From the IMG/VR virus record IMGVR_UViG_3300027851_000075, positions 1-36,466 of that record: a stretch of 36,466 bases of DNA. One strand, written 5' to 3'. The notes under the pieces are model-generated. The model was not told where the DNA came from, made no database searches, and worked only from the letters and a program-made list of their open reading frames with translations. Origin of the DNA: a virus. This document shows, one piece after another, positions 5,974-36,466 of this stretch. The translations under genes were made by a program, and so were the position numbers. Position 1 is the stretch's first letter. Every line of letters begins with the position of its first letter.

Positions 5974-6011
5974 AAAAAAACAAGCCGTGAAGACATTTCT
6001 ATCTTCACGGC
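5974..6011 (-). terminator. Intrinsic terminator of leader copy 1
   Basis: Stem GCCGTGAAGA/TCTTCACGGC with loop TAGAAATG, then TTGTTTTTTT on the minus strand, placed 27 nt before the scaffold start codon. Confidence 0.85.
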
Positions 6012-6104
6012 CGCTCATCTTCCGTCTTGCCCCGCGCTCTTCGCCGGGCTGCTGCTGGATTCAGGAGAATCGTAGATTCTCCCCTTTGAAAGGGCTATGC
6101 CCTT
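5974..6104 (-). ncRNA. Late-operon leader RNA, copy 1 (terminated, upstream of scaffold gene)
   Basis: Predicted transcript of about 130 nt from the promoter at 6111-6143. In order it holds: hairpin A (GAAAGGGC/GCCCTTTC, triloop ATA); hairpin B (GGAGAATC/GATTCTCC); hairpin C (GCCCGGCG/CGCGGGGC, one mismatch); a conserved unpaired stretch around CGGAAGATGAGCGG; and an intrinsic terminator. The same RNA heads all four late operons (24351, 28426 and 34834 are the other copies). Hairpin A is GAAAGAGC/GCTCTTTC in copy 2, so pairing is kept while sequence changes. A terminator before the genes implies that readthrough must be licensed, possibly by put-like antitermination. That role is inference. 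Confidence 0.75.
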
Positions 6105-6110
6105 TCATCC

Positions 6111-6143
6111 AGTATACCAAATTCCGCAATACTTTAAAAGCCC
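6111..6143 (-). promoter_or_regulatory. Late promoter P2, copy 1
   Basis: Extended -10 TGGTATACT on the minus strand. At the -35 position is a palindromic CTTTTAAAG inside a GGGCTTTTAAAG box present in all four copies, instead of TTGACA. The box looks like a binding site for a phage activator or an alternative sigma factor; this is inference. Confidence 0.7.
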
Positions 6144-6152
6144 CTATTTTCC

Positions 6153-6440
6153 TTACCCCGCCATCTCCAGCAGCGGGATCAAATCTTGATACAACCCCAC
6201 CGCGCTCATCGTCTGCAATTCCCCCGTCATCCGCAGCTCTTCTTCCGTCGACCGCAGCACCAGCACCGTATCCAGCAGCGCTTCCTGCTCCGCATCCAGC
6301 CCTTCCCGCAGCTTCTCCGTCAACTTCTCATTCAACAACTCCACCATCCACAGCGGGATTTTCCTGCCCTGGCTCGCTTCCCACGCCAGCGTACTGCCAA
6401 CTGCAACTACTTCTTCTTGTCGTACTTCATTGGTAATCAT
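6153..6440 (-). CDS. Cassette protein, copy 1 (95 aa, unknown; candidate late regulator)
   Basis: A 95-residue, mostly helical acidic protein with no recognised family. Two paralogues lie at 24534-24821 (nearly identical) and 28586-28888 (diverged, longer by five). Conserved blocks are AWEASQGRKIPLWMVE and ELRMTGELQTMSAVGLYQDL. The start chosen is the ATG nine bases after GGAG; an upstream in-frame ATG (6455) would put this Shine-Dalgarno inside the gene. The GGAG belongs to GGAGACACCC, which is complementary to the terminator loop of the RNA just upstream. Its position between that RNA and the late promoter suggests a regulator of late leaders, but nothing in the sequence proves it. Confidence 0.75.
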   Translation of the reverse strand: MITNEVRQEEVVAVGSTLAWEASQGRKIPLWMVELLNEKLTEKLREGLDAEQEALLDTVLVLRSTEEELRMTGELQTMSAVGLYQDLIPLLEMAG

Positions 6441-6466
6441 TTTGGGTGTCTCCATTTTTTTGCCCG

Positions 6467-6676
6467 CAAAAACAAAAAACCGCAACGCAGTCAACCGCCT
6501 GGAGACACCCATCTCGTGAGCAAATTTTCTGCGCTGCGGATCTTTGTCCACAAGCTTTAAATATATGTTAAATTAGTCGGTTTATGGCTATTCAATTAGG
6601 GCGGTTTGGTGCTTACTTTCATCACACCTGGTGTTTTAAAGTACAAAATTGCTCAAACTTAGAGGTGGGTGTCTCT
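6467..6676 (-). ncRNA. Cassette RNA (P1 RNA), copy 1
   Basis: Predicted approximately 210-nt RNA. Its predicted +1 (6676) begins AGAGACACCC. It ends in an intrinsic terminator: CCGCAGCGCAG (6529-6539) pairs with CTGCGTTGCGG (6480-6490), then TTTTTTGTTTTT. The terminator loop holds GAGATGGGTGTCTCC (6501-6515), complementary both to the RNA's 5' end (6662-6675) and to GGAGACACCC at the Shine-Dalgarno of the 95-residue gene (6444-6453). A second helix, TGAGCAA/TTGCTCA, extends the 5'-to-loop pairing. The RNA can therefore hide the ribosome site in trans or by readthrough, with its own 5' end competing. Confidence 0.7.
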
Positions 6677-6682
6677 GCCCAT

Positions 6683-6688
6683 AGTATA
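6683..6688 (-). promoter_or_regulatory. Promoter P1, copy 1
   Basis: Extended -10 TGCTATACT on the minus strand, seven bases before AGAGAC; no good -35. Identical in all three cassette copies. Confidence 0.65.
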
Positions 6689-6720
6689 GCACAATTGGTA
6701 TACAAATCCAACGCCTGTTT

Positions 6721-6756
6721 AAAATCAACCGCCCAGCTAATGTAGCTGAGCGGTTG
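6721..6756 (-). terminator. Terminator of anti-tRNA RNA, locus 1
   Basis: 14-bp stem with a CAT loop and one G-T pair, followed by ATTTT on the minus strand. Confidence 0.75.
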
Positions 6757-6821
6757 AGTTCATTCCACTCCCCAAAGGACTTGAAATGAACTATCGTCAA
6801 TTCTGACTGTTCTTGCGAAAC
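6721..6821 (-). ncRNA. Anti-tRNA small RNA, locus 1
   Basis: Predicted approximately 100-nt RNA. Its predicted 5' end (6808-6822) is a perfect 15-nt complement of the anticodon arm of the adjacent tRNA (TGTTCTTGCGAAACA in the tRNA). A small hairpin (GTCA GAAT TGAC), a longer GTTCATT/AATGAAC stem and a terminator follow (CAACCGCTCAGCTA/TAGCTGGGCGGTTG, then ATTTT). It has its own promoter at 6828-6856. Locus 2 (29197-29301) repeats this plan with a different tRNA. Confidence 0.65.
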
Positions 6822-6827
6822 ATATAT

Positions 6828-6856
6828 AGTATAACAAATTTTGCATATTGATTCAA
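6828..6856 (-). promoter_or_regulatory. Promoter of anti-tRNA RNA, locus 1
   Basis: TTGAAT (6856-6851), 17-bp spacer, TATACT (6833-6828); predicted +1 at 6821, one base inside the antisense segment. Confidence 0.75.
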
Positions 6857-6863
6857 TATGGAG

Positions 6864-6936
6864 CGCCCCCGGCCAGAATTGAACTGACATATTTTGTTTC
6901 GCAAGAACAACGCTTTGTCCATTAAGCTACAGGGGC
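6864..6936 (-). tRNA. tRNA with anticodon TGC (Ala codon GCA), atypical
   Basis: 73-nt cloverleaf: acceptor GCCCCTG/CGGGGGC, D-stem GCTT/AAGC with loop AATGGACA, anticodon stem TTGTT/AACAA with loop CTTGCGA (anticodon 6901-6903), T-stem GTCAG/CTGGC with loop TTCAATT. No CCA is encoded and the discriminator is G. An alanine tRNA normally carries G3-U70 and A73; here 3-70 is C-G. The body (A20, AATGGA D-loop) is more arginine-like, so charging with alanine is doubtful. Confidence 0.85.
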
Positions 6937-7697: not shown

Positions 7698-8201
7698 TCA
7701 CTGGCTGACAGTTATCATCGTCGCCTGAAAACTCCCCTGGCGGGAAGCGGGCACCAGCATGAAGCCATACTCACTCGGCAGTCGCAGCAGGTACCCGTTA
7801 TACGCCCTCTCCACCCCCGGGAACACGTCCGCCCACAGGCCAATTTTCTGCCCACCCACCATCAATTCATAACTCTCGCGCACCTTCTGGTACCGCCGTT
7901 GGAACAGCCAGGTGAACACCACCGCATGAAACAACCGTGTCGAATGATACCTGCGGGCGTAGAAGAACAATTTTGTCTTCTCGCGGTCCCAGAACGCCGC
8001 CTGCGGTTCAATAGCCATTATGGCGGCCAGGCTATTAAAAACATCCAATCGCGCCGCTCTGTTGCCTTGCTCGATCCTCATCAGCGTACTCACCGAAACA
8101 CCGGTGACCTCGCTCAGGCGTTCACGCGAAAACCCAAACTGCTTCCGCCACTGCAACAACTGCTCACGAAATTCCTTTTCATCTACTGGCTGGTATTCCA
8201 T
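7698..8201 (-). CDS. XRE-family helix-turn-helix regulator
   Basis: A 167-residue protein. Residues 10-60 form an XRE helix-turn-helix (QLLQWRKQFGFSRERLSEVTGVSVSTLMRIEQGNRAARLD in its expected order of helices). The remaining 100 residues are aromatic and basic and match no domain I recognise. It overlaps the zinc-ribbon gene upstream by 19 bp and follows GGAGAGG. Its place in the replication operon suggests control of early genes rather than the lysogeny repressor, which sits at 15317. Confidence 0.75.
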   Translation of the reverse strand: MEYQPVDEKEFREQLLQWRKQFGFSRERLSEVTGVSVSTLMRIEQGNRAARLDVFNSLAAIMAIEPQAAFWDREKTKLFFYARRYHSTRLFHAVVFTWLFQRRYQKVRESYELMVGGQKIGLWADVFPGVERAYNGYLLRLPSEYGFMLVPASRQGSFQATMITVSQ

Positions 8202-8924: not shown

Positions 8925-9245
8925 TTGTGTGTATGTTGTGTATGTAGGTGTTTTCAACATACACACTTTCTGGCCCCTGAAATTCTTCCAGGAGACAAAT
9001 CTTCTTAACTCACTTAATACATATACATAGATATACAGATAGTTCACATTTTGACGATCAAACCCGATACCTATGCGCAATAGACGGGCATAGTTTTTTG
9101 AATGTGTGTATGTTGTGTATGTTGTGCACATTGGAATCAGGTTTCCGGCCTTTGTTTTGCTTACTACGGCTGGCTGTTGAGAATGCAAATCAAATCCCCT
9201 CTTTAGCCATAAGACATACACAACATACACAACGTACACAGCCAG
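8925..9245. other. Candidate replication origin with TGTATGTTG iterons
   Basis: At least six copies of TGTATGTTG or its complement (one with a single substitution) in three clusters: 8927-8966, 9104-9126 and 9214-9239. The first cluster is a perfect 12-bp inverted repeat (GTGTGTATGTTG/CAACATACACAC). An AT-rich stretch (9008-9050) lies between. There is no credible gene across these 350 bp, and the primase gene is adjacent. The array could instead be an operator for the genes on either side. Confidence 0.55.
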
Positions 9246-12311: not shown

Positions 12312-12521
12312 TCAACTCGCCCGCAGCATTATGCGAACAAAATTACCTGCCCAATACGCCAAAAACAGCCCCAAAACCGCCCAGGATCCATGGGTTTTGT
12401 TCGCATAATGCCAATTATCCGAACTCGCCCGACCCTGTTTTCTCCGCCCTGCCACTGCGCGGGGTTCTACGGGTGTATATGTGAATTTCCAGATATTTTC
12501 TGCTACTACTAACCTTTTCAT
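12312..12521 (-). CDS. Small basic protein with C-terminal membrane segment
   Basis: 69 residues from the ATG that overlaps the previous stop (ATGA). Basic N-terminal half (RAVAGRRKQGR) and one likely membrane helix (WAVLGLFLAYWAGNFV). No family. The coupling argues for translation; the lack of a clear ribosome site argues for low output. A GC-rich paired region (12243-12305) follows it before the primase gene. Confidence 0.45.
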   Translation of the reverse strand: MKRLVVAENIWKFTYTPVEPRAVAGRRKQGRASSDNWHYANKTHGSWAVLGLFLAYWAGNFVRIMLRAS

Positions 12522-15240: not shown

Positions 15241-15310
15241 TGACTACGTTGTAGTCATATTAGCACGGCAGTAACCATTTGTCAACTGTTTGGTCTACAC
15301 TTGCTATAAT
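15241..15310. promoter_or_regulatory. Divergent promoter-operator region
   Basis: Leftward: TTGACA (15285-15280), 17-bp spacer, TAATAT (15262-15257). Rightward: extended -10 TGCTATAAT (15302-15310), with TTGTCA at 15279-15284, a 20-bp spacer. The two -35 regions overlap, so polymerases exclude each other. Operators: TGACTAC gtt GTAGTCA (15241-15257) at the leftward start, and TCTAC/GTAGA arms around the rightward -10. Confidence 0.75.
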
Positions 15311-15316
15311 GTAGAT

Positions 15317-15727
15317 GTGAAAAGCGAATTCTCCGAATTTCTCTCTAAGGAATATGTTAAGTGGCGTGGTGATGCTATTGGCAATGAACGTTCAATCACA
15401 GACTACGCGACTTTTCTCGGTTTTCAGAAAGCTACATTAACTGCTTGGATCAATGGATCTCGAACGCCAAAATCTCAAAAATCCATTAATCAATTAGTCA
15501 GTCATTTTGGAGACATTACTTATTCATTACTTGGTCTTCGGGAACCATCTAAATTATCTTCATTGCCATCTGGGATCCGCTCTGGTCTGGAAGCTGCCAT
15601 CTCAGAATTGAATGCAGAAACAATCGCAAAAGGCATCAAACCAGAATCACCCGAAGCTTTGGCGCTGGCAGCATCCATCTTCAAAAAACATGGGTTCACC
15701 ATCAATTCCACAACCACCGAACCCTGA
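15317..15727 (+). CDS. Repressor-like helix-turn-helix protein
   Basis: 136 residues from a GTG placed seven bases after the -10 hexamer, so the mRNA is probably leaderless. Residues about 20-60 (ITDYATFLGFQKATLTAWINGSRTPKSQKSINQL) are an XRE-type DNA-binding domain; the rest is helical (GLEAAISELNAETIAKGI). No peptidase domain for SOS cleavage is present. It is divergent from the RHH gene across shared operators and is the best candidate for the lysogeny repressor. A TTG at 15290 is rejected because it lies upstream of the -10. Confidence 0.75.
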   Translation: MKSEFSEFLSKEYVKWRGDAIGNERSITDYATFLGFQKATLTAWINGSRTPKSQKSINQLVSHFGDITYSLLGLREPSKLSSLPSGIRSGLEAAISELNAETIAKGIKPESPEALALAASIFKKHGFTINSTTTEP

Positions 15728-16616: not shown

Positions 16617-16794
16617 GTAAGAGGGTTAAGGTAAGTTTTTGCCAGGAACTGCATGGGGTGTAAGAGGTCGAAGGTTCGAATCCTTTCGCCCCGACCATAA
16701 GCCTCTTACAGAGGCAAATCTCCACGGTAAGAGGTCTCTGGTTCACTTTTTGGGCAGTTTTTCAACTCTCAAAAACAACCGGAGACCTCTTACC
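16617..16794. other. Attachment-site region with GTAAGAGG repeats
   Basis: GTAAGAGG lies at 16617, 16660 and 16727, and its complement at 16702 and 16786. The outer pair extends to an 18-bp inverted repeat with one mismatch (16726-16743/16777-16794). The core overlaps the tRNA-Pro fragment. Integrase 2 starts 77 bp to the right. Arms on both sides suggest an intact attP rather than attL or attR. Confidence 0.6.
16651..16697 (+). tRNA. 3' fragment of a tRNA-Pro(GGG), att core
   Basis: Begins at the anticodon loop (ATGGGGT), then the T-arm GAAGG TTCGAAT CCTTT, acceptor strand CGCCCCG, A73 and encoded CCA. No matching 5' half precedes it. This is the part of a tRNA gene that phages carry to restore the gene on integration. 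Confidence 0.75.
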
Positions 16795-16870
16795 ACGGAA
16801 TTCACAAAATACGAATTGCAGCCCTGGTGTTTTCTTCCTACAATCGAATTCCAAGGAGGATACCCCAATT

Positions 16871-17806
16871 ATGCAACTGTCTACAGCCATCAAAACCTAT
16901 GTTCTTTACCTTGCATCCCTCGGCCGCTCTCCCAGTACCATCAGTTACTACCGCGGCTGCATGGAGCGCCTGCAGGCAGCCATCGGTGACCTAGCGGTTG
17001 ATGAGATCACCCACACGCACCTGGTCAATTTCATGGCGGAACAAAACTTCCAGCAAAAATCCCAGGCGACCATGCAGGCCTATTGGAAAACCTTCAAATC
17101 TTTTTTCACCTGGTGCGAAGAGGAGCTGAATTTAAAGAACCGCCCTGACGCCCGCATCAAATGCCCCCAGGTGCCGCCGCCCGAAGTCATTCCCTTCTCG
17201 CACGACGATATCAAAGCCCTGATGCGCGCTGCAGCCCTGACCAACACCTGTCGCACCCGGGGCCGCAAGTCGTATAAAATGCGCCGCCCCACCGCCGCCC
17301 GGGATCTATCGCTGCTCATGCTCATGCTGGATACCGGATTGCGCGTGTCAGAAGTGGCCCGCATCAAGATTGCCGATGTGGATCTGTTTGAATCAGGTTC
17401 CATCCAGGTGCGCGCTTACCGTTCCGGCCAGAAGTCTCGCCCGCGCACCGTTTACATGTCCAAACGCACCGCCTACCAGATCCACCTGTATCTCAACGAA
17501 CGCCACAAACCACACCCCACCGAAGCATTGTTCCTGAGCGCACATCGCAATCCCATGGACAAAGATTCCATCGATGGCGTCATTGCCAACCTGGGAAAAC
17601 GCGCCAACATCAACAAGACCCACCCGCACCGGTTCAGGCATACCTTCGCCATTGAATTTTTGCGCAATGGCGGTGACGTGTATACCCTGCAGCGCATGCT
17701 GGGTCACTCTACCCTCGATATGGTCAAGCGCTACCTGAATATTTCCGAAGTAGATGTCGAAAACGCCCACCGCCTGGCCTCCCCGGTCGATAACTGGCGG
17801 TTGTAA
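16871..17806 (+). CDS. int: Tyrosine recombinase (integrase 2)
   Basis: 311 residues: an N-terminal SAM-like domain (YVLYLASLGRSPSTISYYRG) and a catalytic domain with Arg in DTGLRVSEV (near 155), HRFRH (253-257), His in LGHST (279) and Tyr in VKRYLN (288). All catalytic residues are intact. The ATG follows CAAGGAGG. It lies next to a tRNA 3' fragment flanked by repeats, the usual place of the enzyme that integrates the phage. It is transcribed against the tail operon and ends in a shared terminator. Confidence 0.92.
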   Translation: MQLSTAIKTYVLYLASLGRSPSTISYYRGCMERLQAAIGDLAVDEITHTHLVNFMAEQNFQQKSQATMQAYWKTFKSFFTWCEEELNLKNRPDARIKCPQVPPPEVIPFSHDDIKALMRAAALTNTCRTRGRKSYKMRRPTAARDLSLLMLMLDTGLRVSEVARIKIADVDLFESGSIQVRAYRSGQKSRPRTVYMSKRTAYQIHLYLNERHKPHPTEALFLSAHRNPMDKDSIDGVIANLGKRANINKTHPHRFRHTFAIEFLRNGGDVYTLQRMLGHSTLDMVKRYLNISEVDVENAHRLASPVDNWRL

Positions 17807-24350: not shown

Positions 24351-24394
24351 ACAAAAAAAAGCCGTGGACTATGCAAATAATGCATAGTCCACGG
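24351..24394 (-). terminator. Intrinsic terminator of leader copy 2
   Basis: Long stem GCCGTGGACTATGCA/TGCATAGTCCACGGC, then eight T on the minus strand. The inner arms share no sequence with copy 1, yet pair fully. Confidence 0.85.
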
Positions 24395-24489
24395 CCGCTC
24401 ATCTTCCGTCTTTGCCCCGCGCTCTTCGCCGGGCTGCTGCTGGGTTCAGGAGAACCTACGACTCTCCCCTTTGAAAGAGCGTAGCTCTT
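24351..24489 (-). ncRNA. Late-operon leader RNA, copy 2 (upstream of tape measure)
   Basis: Same plan as copy 1, about 139 nt. Hairpin A is GAAAGAGC/GCTCTTTC, a compensated change from copy 1; hairpin B is GGAGAGTC/GGTTCTCC with wobble pairs. Loops and the CGGAAGATGAGCGG stretch are conserved. Confidence 0.75.
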
Positions 24490-24495
24490 TCATCC

Positions 24496-24528
24496 AGTAT
24501 ACCAAATTGCACCCAACTTTAAAAGCCC
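24496..24528 (-). promoter_or_regulatory. Late promoter P2, copy 2
   Basis: TGGTATACT with the GGGCTTTTAAAG box at -35. Confidence 0.7.
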
Positions 24529-24533
24529 TTATT

Positions 24534-24821
24534 TTACCCCGCCATCTCCAGCAGCGGGATCAAATCTTGATACAACCCCACCGCGCTCATCGTCTGCAAT
24601 TCCCCCGTCATCCGCAGCTCTTCTTCCGTCGACCGCAGCACCAGCACCGTATCCAGCAGCGCTTCCTGCTCCGCGTCCAGCCCCTCCCGCAGCTTCTCCG
24701 TCAACTTCTCATTCAACAACTCCACCATCCACAGCGGGATTTTCCTGCCCTGGCTCGCTTCCCACGCCAGTGTACTGCCAACTGAAACTACTTCTTCTTG
24801 TCGTACTTCATTGGTATTCAT
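24534..24821 (-). CDS. Cassette protein, copy 2 (95 aa, unknown)
   Basis: Differs from copy 1 at only two residues (MN for MI at the start and S for A in VVSVGS). The ATG lies nine bases after GGAG, which is part of GGAGACGGGCAT (24823-24834), complementary to this copy's own RNA loop. It sits between the tail chaperones and the tape measure, interrupting a gene pair that is normally adjacent in siphoviruses. Confidence 0.75.
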   Translation of the reverse strand: MNTNEVRQEEVVSVGSTLAWEASQGRKIPLWMVELLNEKLTEKLREGLDAEQEALLDTVLVLRSTEEELRMTGELQTMSAVGLYQDLIPLLEMAG

Positions 24822-24848
24822 TATGCCCGTCTCCATTTCATGCCCGTA

Positions 24849-25057
24849 AACCAAAAAACCACAGCGCAGTCAACCACCTGGAGACGGGCATCTCGTGAGT
24901 AGCTTTTCTGCGCTGCGGATCTTTGTCCACAAGCATTTGAATATTCAGATATGTTAATTTAGTCGGTTTATGGATATAGGCGGTTGGGTGCTTACTTTCA
25001 ATTGCACCTGGTATTTTAAAGTACAAAGTTACTCACATTGCGAGATTGCCCGTCTCT
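24849..25057 (-). ncRNA. Cassette RNA (P1 RNA), copy 2
   Basis: Begins AGAGACGGGC. Loop element GAGATGCCCGTCTCC (24880-24894) pairs with the 5' end (25042-25056) and with the Shine-Dalgarno region (24823-24834). Terminator stem CCGCAGCGCAG/CTGCGCTGTGG keeps pairing with a G-T at a different position from copy 1. The second helix is GTGAGTA/TACTCAC, compensated against copy 1. Confidence 0.7.
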
Positions 25058-25063
25058 GCCCAT

Positions 25064-25069
25064 AGTATA
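25064..25069 (-). promoter_or_regulatory. Promoter P1, copy 2
   Basis: Extended -10 TGCTATACT; predicted +1 at 25057. Confidence 0.65.
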
Positions 25070-25095
25070 GCACAATTTGTAGACAAATAGTACGT

Positions 25096-28425: not shown

Positions 28426-28464
28426 AAAAACAAACAAGCCGTGAAGACATTTCTATCTTCACGG
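28426..28464 (-). terminator. Intrinsic terminator of leader copy 3
   Basis: Same stem as copy 1 (GCCGTGAAGA/TCTTCACGGC), then TTGTTTGTTTTT on the minus strand. Confidence 0.82.
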
Positions 28465-28556
28465 CCGCTCATCTTCCGTTGTGCCCCGCGCTCTCCGCCG
28501 GGCTGCTTGGTTCAGGAGAATCGTAGATTCTCCCCTTTGAAAGGGCTATGCCCTTT
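28426..28556 (-). ncRNA. Late-operon leader RNA, copy 3 (upstream of connectors)
   Basis: Same order as copy 1. The C hairpin loop is GGAGAG instead of GAAGAG and the linker before CGGAAG differs by two bases, while stems are intact. Confidence 0.75.
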
Positions 28557-28562
28557 CAATCC

Positions 28563-28595
28563 ATTGTACCAAATTGCGCCCAACTTTAAAAGCCC
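28563..28595 (-). promoter_or_regulatory. Late promoter P2, copy 3
   Basis: TGGTACAAT with the GGGCTTTTAAAG box, which overlaps the stop codon of the cassette gene. Confidence 0.7.
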
Positions 28596-28888
28596 TCATT
28601 TTCCCCCGTCATCGCCAGTGCCGGGATCAAATCCTGGTACAACCCCACCGCGCTCATCGTCTGTAACTCCCCCGTCATCCGCAGTTCGTCTCCCATCGAC
28701 CGTACCACCAGCAGCGAATCCAGCAGTGCTTCCTGCTCTGCGCTCAGCCCGGCCCGCAGCTTTTCCGTCAACCGGTCATCCAATTCTTCCACCATCCACA
28801 ACGGGATCTTCCTGCCCTGGCTCGCTTCCCACGCCAGGTCACTGCCAACTGCTTCTACTTCTTCTTGCCGTATTTCATTGGTATTCAT
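28586..28888 (-). CDS. Cassette protein, copy 3 (100 aa, unknown)
   Basis: Diverged paralogue: changes cluster in the middle helix (EELDDRLTEKLRAGLSAEQ) and it is five residues longer (ENEGF) because the stop lies inside the P2 box. The core AWEASQGRKIPLWMVE and ELQTMSAVGLYQDLIP are unchanged. The ATG lies nine bases after GGAG in GGAGACCTCC (28892-28901). Confidence 0.75.
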   Translation of the reverse strand: MNTNEIRQEEVEAVGSDLAWEASQGRKIPLWMVEELDDRLTEKLRAGLSAEQEALLDSLLVVRSMGDELRMTGELQTMSAVGLYQDLIPALAMTGENEGF

Positions 28889-28913
28889 TTTGGAGGTCTC
28901 CATATTCAGCCCG

Positions 28914-29123
28914 CAAAAACAAAAAACCGCAACGCAGTCAACCGCCTGGAGACCTCCATCTCGTGAGCAAATTTTCTGCGCTGCGGATCTTTGTCCACAA
29001 GCTTTAAATATATGTTAAATTAGTCGGTTTATGGCTATTCAATTGGGCGGTTTGGTGCTTACTTTCATTCACACCTGGTGTTTTAAAGTACAAAATTGCT
29101 CAAACTTAGAGGTGGAGGTCTCT
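28914..29123 (-). ncRNA. Cassette RNA (P1 RNA), copy 3
   Basis: Begins AGAGACCTCC. Loop element GAGATGGAGGTCTCC (28948-28962), 5' partner 29109-29122, Shine-Dalgarno partner 28892-28901. It is nearly the same sequence as copy 1 apart from these three words, which all change from the ACACCC type to the ACCTCC type. Terminator stem CCGCAGCGCAG/CTGCGTTGCGG, then TTTTTTGTTTTT. Confidence 0.72.
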
Positions 29124-29129
29124 GCCCAT

Positions 29130-29135
29130 AGTATA
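29130..29135 (-). promoter_or_regulatory. Promoter P1, copy 3
   Basis: Extended -10 TGCTATACT; predicted +1 at 29123. Confidence 0.65.
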
Positions 29136-29196
29136 GCACAATTGGTAGACAAATCCAACAGATTCCTACAAAAAAACGTCCAGTTGCCTGACCGTT

Positions 29197-29301
29197 TAAA
29201 AGGCGCAGCGCCCAAATGCGGGGGCTATTTGAGCGCTGGCGGGGCGGGAGGAAATATTAATTTCAACCCATACCGGTTCTACCGGCAATTTTACTCGCAG
29301 T
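29197..29301 (-). ncRNA. Anti-tRNA small RNA, locus 2
   Basis: Predicted approximately 105-nt RNA beginning exactly at the antisense segment: ACTGCGAGTAAAAT (29301-29288) is complementary to the adjacent tRNA's anticodon arm, and after one extra T the match goes on (GCC). A CCGGT AGA ACCGG hairpin, a GAAAT/ATTTC hairpin and a terminator-like stem (AGCGCTCAAAT/ATTTGGGCGCT) follow, then GCGCCTTTT. Order and length mirror locus 1 although the sequences differ. Confidence 0.65.
29198..29237 (-). terminator. Terminator-like hairpin of anti-tRNA RNA, locus 2
   Basis: 11-bp stem with a nine-base loop; the T-tract is short and offset by five bases, so efficiency is uncertain. Confidence 0.55.
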
Positions 29302-29307
29302 GATTCC

Positions 29308-29336
29308 ATTATACACATTTTACGAACTATTTTCAA
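29308..29336 (-). promoter_or_regulatory. Promoter of anti-tRNA RNA, locus 2
   Basis: TTGAAA (29336-29331), 17-bp spacer, TATAAT (29313-29308); predicted +1 at 29301. A near-consensus sigma70 promoter directly 3' of the tRNA. Confidence 0.85.
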
Positions 29337-29343
29337 GAAATAG

Positions 29344-29416
29344 CTCCCCCGACCGGACTCGAACCGATATTTTTTTTACTGCGAGTAAAATGCCATGTCC
29401 ATTAGGCGACGGGGGA
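29344..29416 (-). tRNA. tRNA with anticodon CGC (Ala codon GCG), atypical
   Basis: 73-nt cloverleaf: acceptor TCCCCCG/CGGGGGA, D-arm GCCT AATGGACA TGGC (three good pairs), anticodon stem TTTTA/TAAAA with loop CTCGCAG (anticodon 29383-29381), T-arm ATCGG TTCGAGT CCGGT. No CCA; discriminator G; pair 3-70 is C-G. As with the tRNA at 6864, the alanine anticodon sits on a body without alanine identity. Confidence 0.88.
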
Positions 29417-34833: not shown

Positions 34834-34876
34834 CAAAAAAAGCCGCAGTCCATACGTTCATCGTATGGACCACGGC
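34834..34876 (-). terminator. Intrinsic terminator of leader copy 4
   Basis: Stem GCCG..GTCCATACG/CGTATGGAC..CGGC with a two-base internal mismatch, then seven T on the minus strand. The stem sequence is unlike copies 1-3. Confidence 0.82.
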
Positions 34877-34971
34877 CGCTCATCTTCCGTCTTTGCCCCG
34901 CGCTCACCGCCGGGCTGCTGCTAGTTTCAGGAGTATCTGGGATTCTCCCCTTTGAAAGGGCTATGCCCTTT
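34834..34971 (-). ncRNA. Late-operon leader RNA, copy 4 (upstream of holin)
   Basis: Same promoter, hairpin order and terminator as copies 1-3, but without the cassette RNA and the 95-residue gene. Hairpin B is weaker. It heads operon A (holin to portal). Confidence 0.75.
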
Positions 34972-34977
34972 CAATCC

Positions 34978-35010
34978 AGTATACCAAATTGCGTGGAACT
35001 TTAAAAGCCC
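34978..35010 (-). promoter_or_regulatory. Late promoter P2, copy 4
   Basis: TGGTATACT with the GGGCTTTTAAAG box at -35, as in the other copies. Confidence 0.7.
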
Positions 35011-35923: not shown

Positions 35924-35993
35924 GAAATTCGCACATTCACTGTTGCATTCCACCCCACTACAGAACCATTGCCAGGCAAAGGGAATATCGAAC

Positions 35994-36466
35994 ATGCCAG
36001 TTAAAAAATCTGAACTCTACTCATCGTTATGGGCGAGCTGTGACGCACTGCGCGGCGGTATGGATGCCTCCCAGTACAAGGATTATGTCCTCGTCATGCT
36101 CTTCATTAAATACATCTCCGACAAGTACGCCGGAAAACCCTATTCCCCCATTCAGGTCCCGCCTGGCGCCAGTTTCAAAGAGATGGTCGCTCTCAAAGGC
36201 AAGTCCGATATCGGTGACCAGATCAACAAGAAGATCATTGCACCCCTCGCCGCCGCCAATCACCTCTCTGATTTTCCCGATTTCAATGATCCCAACAAGC
36301 TGGGCGATGGCAAAGAAATGGTCGATCGCCTCACCAATCTGATTGCCATCTTTGAAAAAAAGGAACTCGATTTCACTGCCAACCGCGCCGATGGCGATGA
36401 CCTCCTCGGCGATGCCTACGAGTACCTCATGCGTAACTTCGCCACCGAGAGCGGTAAATCCAAGGG
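35994..36466 (+). CDS. hsdM: Type I restriction-modification methyltransferase subunit HsdM (partial)
   Basis: The first 157 residues, running off the window. MPVKKSELYSSLWASCDALR, then YKDYVLVMLFIKYISDKYAG and the GDAYEYLMRNFATESGKSKG block are the N-terminal helical domain of HsdM up to just before the methyltransferase core, which would follow (usual length about 500 residues). It methylates adenine within a complex with HsdS and HsdR. The ATG follows AAAGGGA. It faces away from the phage and probably belongs to a host hsd operon, marking the outer side of the phage. Confidence 0.9.
   Translation, partial: MPVKKSELYSSLWASCDALRGGMDASQYKDYVLVMLFIKYISDKYAGKPYSPIQVPPGASFKEMVALKGKSDIGDQINKKIIAPLAAANHLSDFPDFNDPNKLGDGKEMVDRLTNLIAIFEKKELDFTANRADGDDLLGDAYEYLMRNFATESGKSK

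Follow-up and report, generated by a model that had tools for sequence, protein, structure and literature searches.

Three candidate self-targeting antisense leaders with different three-nucleotide codes in one viral genome

Three paralogues of a gene for a small acidic protein lie in the genome of a single virus, the first of them at positions 6153-6440, and the question that they raise is what the protein does and why one genome should hold three versions of it. The DNA analysed here is IMG/VR record IMGVR_UViG_3300027851_000075, whose full length of 36,466 nt we refer to as the window. The late genes of this virus lie on the minus strand, and portal, terminase, capsid, a Mu F-like protein, endolysin, holin, SSB and the major tail protein could all be recognised. 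The strongest signal at the three loci, which the preliminary description of this DNA had missed, lies in the leader RNA ahead of each gene, and consists of a covarying code at three pairing sites (A, B and C).

The small gene and the unit repeated with it

The three paralogues, described earlier as proteins of 95-100 residues, were confirmed as ORFs on the minus strand: copy 1 at 6153-6440 (intact, 95 codons), copy 2 at 24534-24821 (95 aa) and copy 3 at 28586-28888 (100 aa, or 105 aa from the first ATG), where the lengths of 95, 95 and 100 aa assume a start at the ATG behind the Shine-Dalgarno sequence. Their pairwise identities range from 80 to 98%, with copy 2 being 96-98% identical to copy 1 (two residues differ) and copy 3 80% identical to it. 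Copies 1 and 3 align with no indels except for the C-terminal extension of copy 3, and the excess of dS (0.33) over dN (0.13) between them, a dN/dS of about 0.4, argues that the ORFs are real and that the protein is maintained under purifying selection. The divergence of copy 3, which had been placed in one helix only, in fact involves several stretches of the alignment (residues 7-22, 40-54, 63-72 and 95-100).

The protein is strongly acidic (pI 4.3/4.2, net charge -10 to -12) and probably helical. The homology search and structure prediction that had been suggested as a way to its function returned no match in Pfam, PHROGs or PDB sequences, whether to a known antiterminator family (Q, N and similar) or to any other, and an AlphaFold2 model that is not reliable (pLDDT 55). 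Most likely, the protein is a small acidic regulator that is made between repressor-controlled and late transcription, its gene being placed immediately before a late promoter and leader. It may resemble an antirepressor, regulate by binding RNA polymerase, or be a late activator.

The repeat exceeds the gene itself. About 750 bp are common to the copies: promoter P1 and the leader RNA come first, followed by the ORF and then by a second promoter (P2) with its terminated late leader, and the earlier statement that each paralogue stands behind a regulatory RNA and ahead of a late leader holds in all three copies. The putative P1 promoters lie on the minus strand at 6683-6706 (copy 1), 25064-25087 (copy 2) and 29130-29153 (copy 3). 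In each of them, an operator-like box (TTTGTATACCAA in copy 1, the palindrome TTTGTCTACAAA in copy 2 and the same box in copy 3) precedes an extended -10 element, TGCTATACT. HTH proteins are encoded at 15290-15727 and 7698-8201, and a similar TTTGGTCTACA...TGCTATAAT occurs in the promoter region belonging to the first of these genes (15290); judged by this resemblance, the three P1 promoters may be under the control of a single repressor of the phage.

From predicted transcription starts at about 6680, 25061 and 29127, the leader RNAs extend over 6474-6680 (about 207 nt), 24853-25061 and 28921-29127 in copies 1, 2 and 3, respectively (all minus strand). All three would end at an intrinsic terminator, predicted as a strong hairpin followed by six U, with stems at 6480-6539, 24859-24918 and 28927-28986 and hairpin energies of -29.5 (z -3.6), -33.5 (z -5.1) and -30.3 kcal/mol (z -3.8). 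A coding frame starting from the GTG at 6551 within the leader was also considered and was rejected, given that copies 1 and 2 differ in it mostly non-synonymously, with the stem being kept. Each leader additionally contains a mini-ORF, MKVST(K/Q)PP, with an AGGTG-type ribosome site (near 6622-6598 in copy 1), which could be a leader peptide, as well as an inverted near-copy of the P2 box (GTRTTTTAAAGT, plus strand) at 6631-6642, 25011-25022 and 29078-29089.

On the other side of the ORFs, late leader 1 (5983-6143) precedes the scaffold/capsid operon, late leader 2 (24360-24528) the tape-measure and tail operon, and late leader 3 (28437-28595) the head-tail connector/tail operon. A fourth late leader (34842-35010, on the minus strand like the others) stands before holin, endolysin, terminase and portal, and has neither the leader switch nor the 95-aa gene. 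The putative promoter P2 combines the invariant box GGGCTTTTAAAGT with AATTTGGTA.A.TGG at a spacing of 7 nt (GGGCTTTTAAAGT-N7-AATTTGGTATACTGG in late leader 1), an arrangement that occurs four times in the window and never in shuffles. Compensatory changes preserve the conserved hairpins of the late leaders and their terminator (5983-6012 in late leader 1). This is clearest in the terminator stem, whose upper half differs strongly among leaders 1/3, 2 and 4 and still pairs in each (for leader 4, the pairing was made by eye).

Two shorter contigs of the same virus, both from sample 3300006033, break inside the ORF. The breaks fall where copies 1 and 2 are identical over more than 100 nt, and therefore which ORF end joins which late leader in these two copies is not independently secured and depends on one assembly; the A, B and C sites lie upstream of the doubtful stretch.

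Several other features of the window were recorded. On the minus strand at 6718-6936 and 29195-29416, there are two tRNA-Ala genes (TGC and CGC), and behind each of them come a sigma-70-like promoter and a short RNA. The 5' end of this RNA is perfectly complementary, over 15 or 14 nt, to the anticodon arm of its own tRNA-Ala, with a cross-complementarity of only 5 nt. A weaker complement of the T-arm follows in the first of these loci, and, in the loci examined, such an anticodon-arm complement is absent for the other tRNAs. Judged by this complementarity, tRNA-Ala and short RNA look like a second covarying RNA pair. Repeats of the TGTGTATGTTG type lie in tandem close to the primase gene (8927-9222) and are possibly replication iterons, and a 17-bp perfect inverted repeat with a 52-nt gap lies upstream of the primase gene (12326-12411). 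At 16617-16810, a sequence resembling a tRNA 3' end and GTAAGAGG repeats adjoin the integrase at 16871 and are possibly attP, in which case the contig may be a free phage and not an integrated prophage. At the right end (35993-36466, plus strand), an open frame that runs off the window resembles, by eye only, the N-terminus of a type I restriction methylase (HsdM).

A three-letter code shared by sites A, B and C

The 10-nt site GAGACNNNCA is found twice in each cassette, once at the 5' end of the RNA (site A, leader nt 6-15) and once over the Shine-Dalgarno sequence of the gene (site C, GGAGACNNNCA, leader nt 228-238, which ends just before the start codon). Site B is the exact reverse complement of both, and forms the tip of the terminator hairpin, GAGAU-GNNN-GUCUC, where the complement of the variable triplet is the apical loop in the predicted fold of all three copies. 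In A and C, the triplet NNN reads ACC in copy 1, GGG in copy 2 and CTC in copy 3, and the three sites agree within each copy. In copy 1, site A (GAGACACCCA) is located at 6666-6675, site B (TGGGTGTCTC, the apical loop of the terminator hairpin and complement of A and C) at 6502-6511, and site C ((G)GAGACACCCA, containing the Shine-Dalgarno of the ORF) at 6443-6452. The corresponding sites are found at 25047-25056 (A, GAGACGGGCA), 24881-24890 (B, TGCCCGTCTC) and 24824-24833 (C, (G)GAGACGGGCA) in copy 2, and at 29113-29122 (A, GAGACCTCCA), 28949-28958 (B, TGGAGGTCTC) and 28891-28900 (C, (G)GAGACCTCCA) in copy 3, with C again over the Shine-Dalgarno in both copies and all sites on the minus strand.

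A scan of the whole window for arrangements of the type X...complement(X)...X matched the three cassettes, each with 10 nt and with equal spacing; other triples of at least 9 nt occur only in the tandem repeats around 9 kb, and shuffled sequences average 0.03. The leaders of copies 1 and 3 are about 97% identical outside the triplets, and between them six of the nine triplet positions differ, against 6 of the 232 others (Fisher 2.8e-7, a value for positions that were chosen post hoc, with few triplet changes and with neighbours that are not independent). Furthermore, copy 1 is a mosaic, with a leader similar to that of copy 3 (2.6% different) and an ORF similar to that of copy 2 (2.1%), which indicates that the copies have exchanged sequence, while each code is still self-consistent and its own.

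The predicted energies follow the code. Cognate A:B duplexes reach -25.2, -26.4 and -25.4 kcal/mol in copies 1, 2 and 3, and cognate C:B duplexes -24.0, -26.9 and -24.2 kcal/mol, and the non-cognate ones range from -10.6 to -18.6 kcal/mol. Separation is weakest for copies 1 and 3, with two of their three triplet bases being different. As a point against the switch proposed below, site A alone is predicted to form only a weak hairpin.

Relatives of these cassettes were searched for in IMG/VR, using three protein queries and three DNA patterns, and only the two contigs of the same virus mentioned above were retrieved, the other DNA-pattern matches being chance matches; none were found in GTDB genomes, phages and plasmids. 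No paralogue of the small protein was found among the relatives of the terminase (at most 38% identical, the virus itself aside), and the few A-B-C-like triples present in these relatives are 9 nt long and uncorrelated with such a gene. Given that no homologue was found in any other virus, the covariation rests on three copies in one genome.

A proposed switch and its alternatives

We consider it somewhat likely that each cassette is a self-targeting antisense leader, whose terminated RNA acts in trans, with negative autoregulation as the most likely outcome. According to this proposal, transcripts from P1 would mostly stop at the terminator, yielding a short RNA of about 207 nt in which site B, at the terminator tip, would be the antisense loop. 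Read-through by some RNA polymerases would yield the mRNA for the small protein, with its Shine-Dalgarno within site C. Pairing of B with C would then block translation (the "off" state), and pairing of A with B in cis should open the terminator and leave C free (the "on" state), which would make A a cis-acting "on" element. Acting in trans, the B site of the short RNA would capture A in nascent transcripts of the same cassette, so that their terminator stays shut, and would also capture C in the mRNA of the same cassette, so that ribosomes are blocked, the two captures together amounting to negative autoregulation. Specificity would come from the three-nucleotide loop (ACC/GGT, GGG/CCC and CTC/GAG), and the three cassettes would thus be insulated from each other.

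Some of the folding predictions are in line with this switch. In the terminated RNA, the energies of the A:B state and the terminator state differ by no more than about 2.5 kcal/mol, which suggests that A can act as an antiterminator, and A and C would compete for B at nearly equal energies. Against B:C pairing, nested folding of the read-through mRNA favours the terminator hairpin (by 11 kcal/mol in copy 2); B:C pairing with the lower terminator stem kept is a pseudoknot, which is outside the nested folding used. Action in trans is what we infer from the divergence of the codes, for which a switch working solely in cis gives no reason.

A wider proposal, which we put forward only tentatively, is that the cassettes are three orthogonal antisense-leader switches, one for each of three late operons, working as independent RNA-addressed gates whose codes would have been separated by selection against crosstalk. 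Ahead of two of these gates would stand the second covarying pair, in which a small RNA complements the anticodon arm of a tRNA.

The regulation could also have the opposite sign, as in IsrK from the Salmonella prophage Gifsy-1, which has the same layout of own promoter, terminator and silent read-through mRNA activated in trans by the short RNA (PMC4825925). The mRNA's own B would then silence its C, and the A site of the short RNA would pair with the B site of the mRNA and free the Shine-Dalgarno. The nearly equal affinities predicted for A and C towards B would suit such a trans-activation, but the A site of the short RNA is predicted to be paired to its own B in copies 1 and 3, and free A may therefore be scarce; we regard activation in trans as doubtful.

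It is similarly improbable, in our view, that the leader is an attenuator acting only in cis, in which A, B and C would form alternative intramolecular pairings, set by co-transcriptional folding or by a ligand or protein, with codes that simply drifted. The layout suits a logic of antiterminator, terminator and anti-Shine-Dalgarno, the A:B and terminator states are nearly isoenergetic, and the long and strongly conserved middle of the leader could be a sensor domain. Nevertheless, drift leaves unexplained why the triplets diverged at three sites in copies 1 and 3, whose leaders are otherwise so similar.

A third alternative, which could hold whichever way the RNA switch works, concerns the protein, namely that it is a late activator or antiterminator acting on the four late leaders. 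In lambdoid late antitermination of the Q/put type, late operons stand behind a leader with a terminator that has to be passed, and in the present virus the late operons likewise follow terminated leaders, although the protein matches none of the known antiterminator families. A copy of the gene lies immediately upstream of three of the four late leaders, and all four have in common a box at about -38 to -27, an extended -10, hairpins and a strong terminator whose stem covaries, as would be found in a co-regulated late regulon. However, the protein is acidic, probably helical and without a family match, late leader 4 has no gene, and a diffusible factor would need no three insulated copies, which makes this function unlikely.

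Finally, a recent duplication without special meaning, in which recombination keeps the copies and the site matches are inherited, agrees with their homology and with the sequence exchanged between them, but has very little probability left, given that inheritance yields identical sites, whereas all three sites changed in concert in each copy, and that the ORF is under purifying selection.

Comparison with known systems

The self-targeting leader proposed here would work, by analogy, like the P4 CI RNA, the c4 RNA of P1/P7 and IsrK, in which an RNA pairs with sites in its own transcript. In all three cassettes, antisense and target belong to one transcript, with A, B and C in order and with C covering the Shine-Dalgarno, and the antisense lies in a structured loop, B being the predicted apex of the terminator hairpin. 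Scanning with Rfam (the whole window at the gathering threshold, and the copy 3 cassette at E up to 10) gave no match to the IsrK or c4 families, with only tRNA above the curated cut-off.

IsrK is, like the short RNA predicted here, a phage small RNA with its own promoter and its own intrinsic terminator. It precedes a phage regulator gene and works on its own read-through mRNA, where the ribosome site is structurally controlled, and both would apply to the present cassettes as well if they work as proposed. It differs in being a single copy, in activating, in having no three-site code, and in the genes downstream (orf45 and an antirepressor, versus the unmatched 95-aa gene). In the P4 CI RNA, complementary sites are located upstream (seqA) and downstream (seqC) in the same transcript (PMC4825925), and they flank the antisense segment in the order A-B-C, as here; tolerant scanning of P4 also returned candidate complementary sites in this order. 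Unlike the present case, the P4 RNA is processed from a transcript and leads to premature termination, whereas here B belongs to a predicted intrinsic terminator and C covers the ribosome-binding site, and one such module has been described in P4, against three in this virus.

The c4 RNA of P1/P7 is antisense to the ribosome-binding region of a phage regulator gene (PMC12197685). As is proposed for our cassettes, it targets a ribosome-binding region, and its pairing sequences are probably in loops. Its specificity differs between heteroimmune relatives, much as it would among our copies; this variation is, however, between two phages and not among three copies in one, and the target is ant instead of a 95-aa gene. 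As for the sign of regulation, c4 and P4 CI repress and IsrK activates (PMC12197685, PMC4825925). In RNAI of the I-complex plasmids, a few loop nucleotides decide antisense specificity (PMC10724649), which makes insulation by three bases plausible, even though that RNA controls plasmid replication and is not a self-targeting phage leader.

A few phages and plasmids already show the principle, and three insulated copies in one phage look new; in the limited set of literature that was searched, three versions with different addresses in one genome are not described. The three versions also make the action in trans cheap to test. Whereas self-targeting antisense leaders are known as single copies, with a specificity that varies between related phages or plasmids, this genome appears to hold three insulated versions that are distinguished by only three nucleotides at three sites each, which, if confirmed, would provide a naturally occurring test of the smallest number of loop bases at which RNA regulators become orthogonal, along with a few ready-made parts from which insulated RNA switches could be built.
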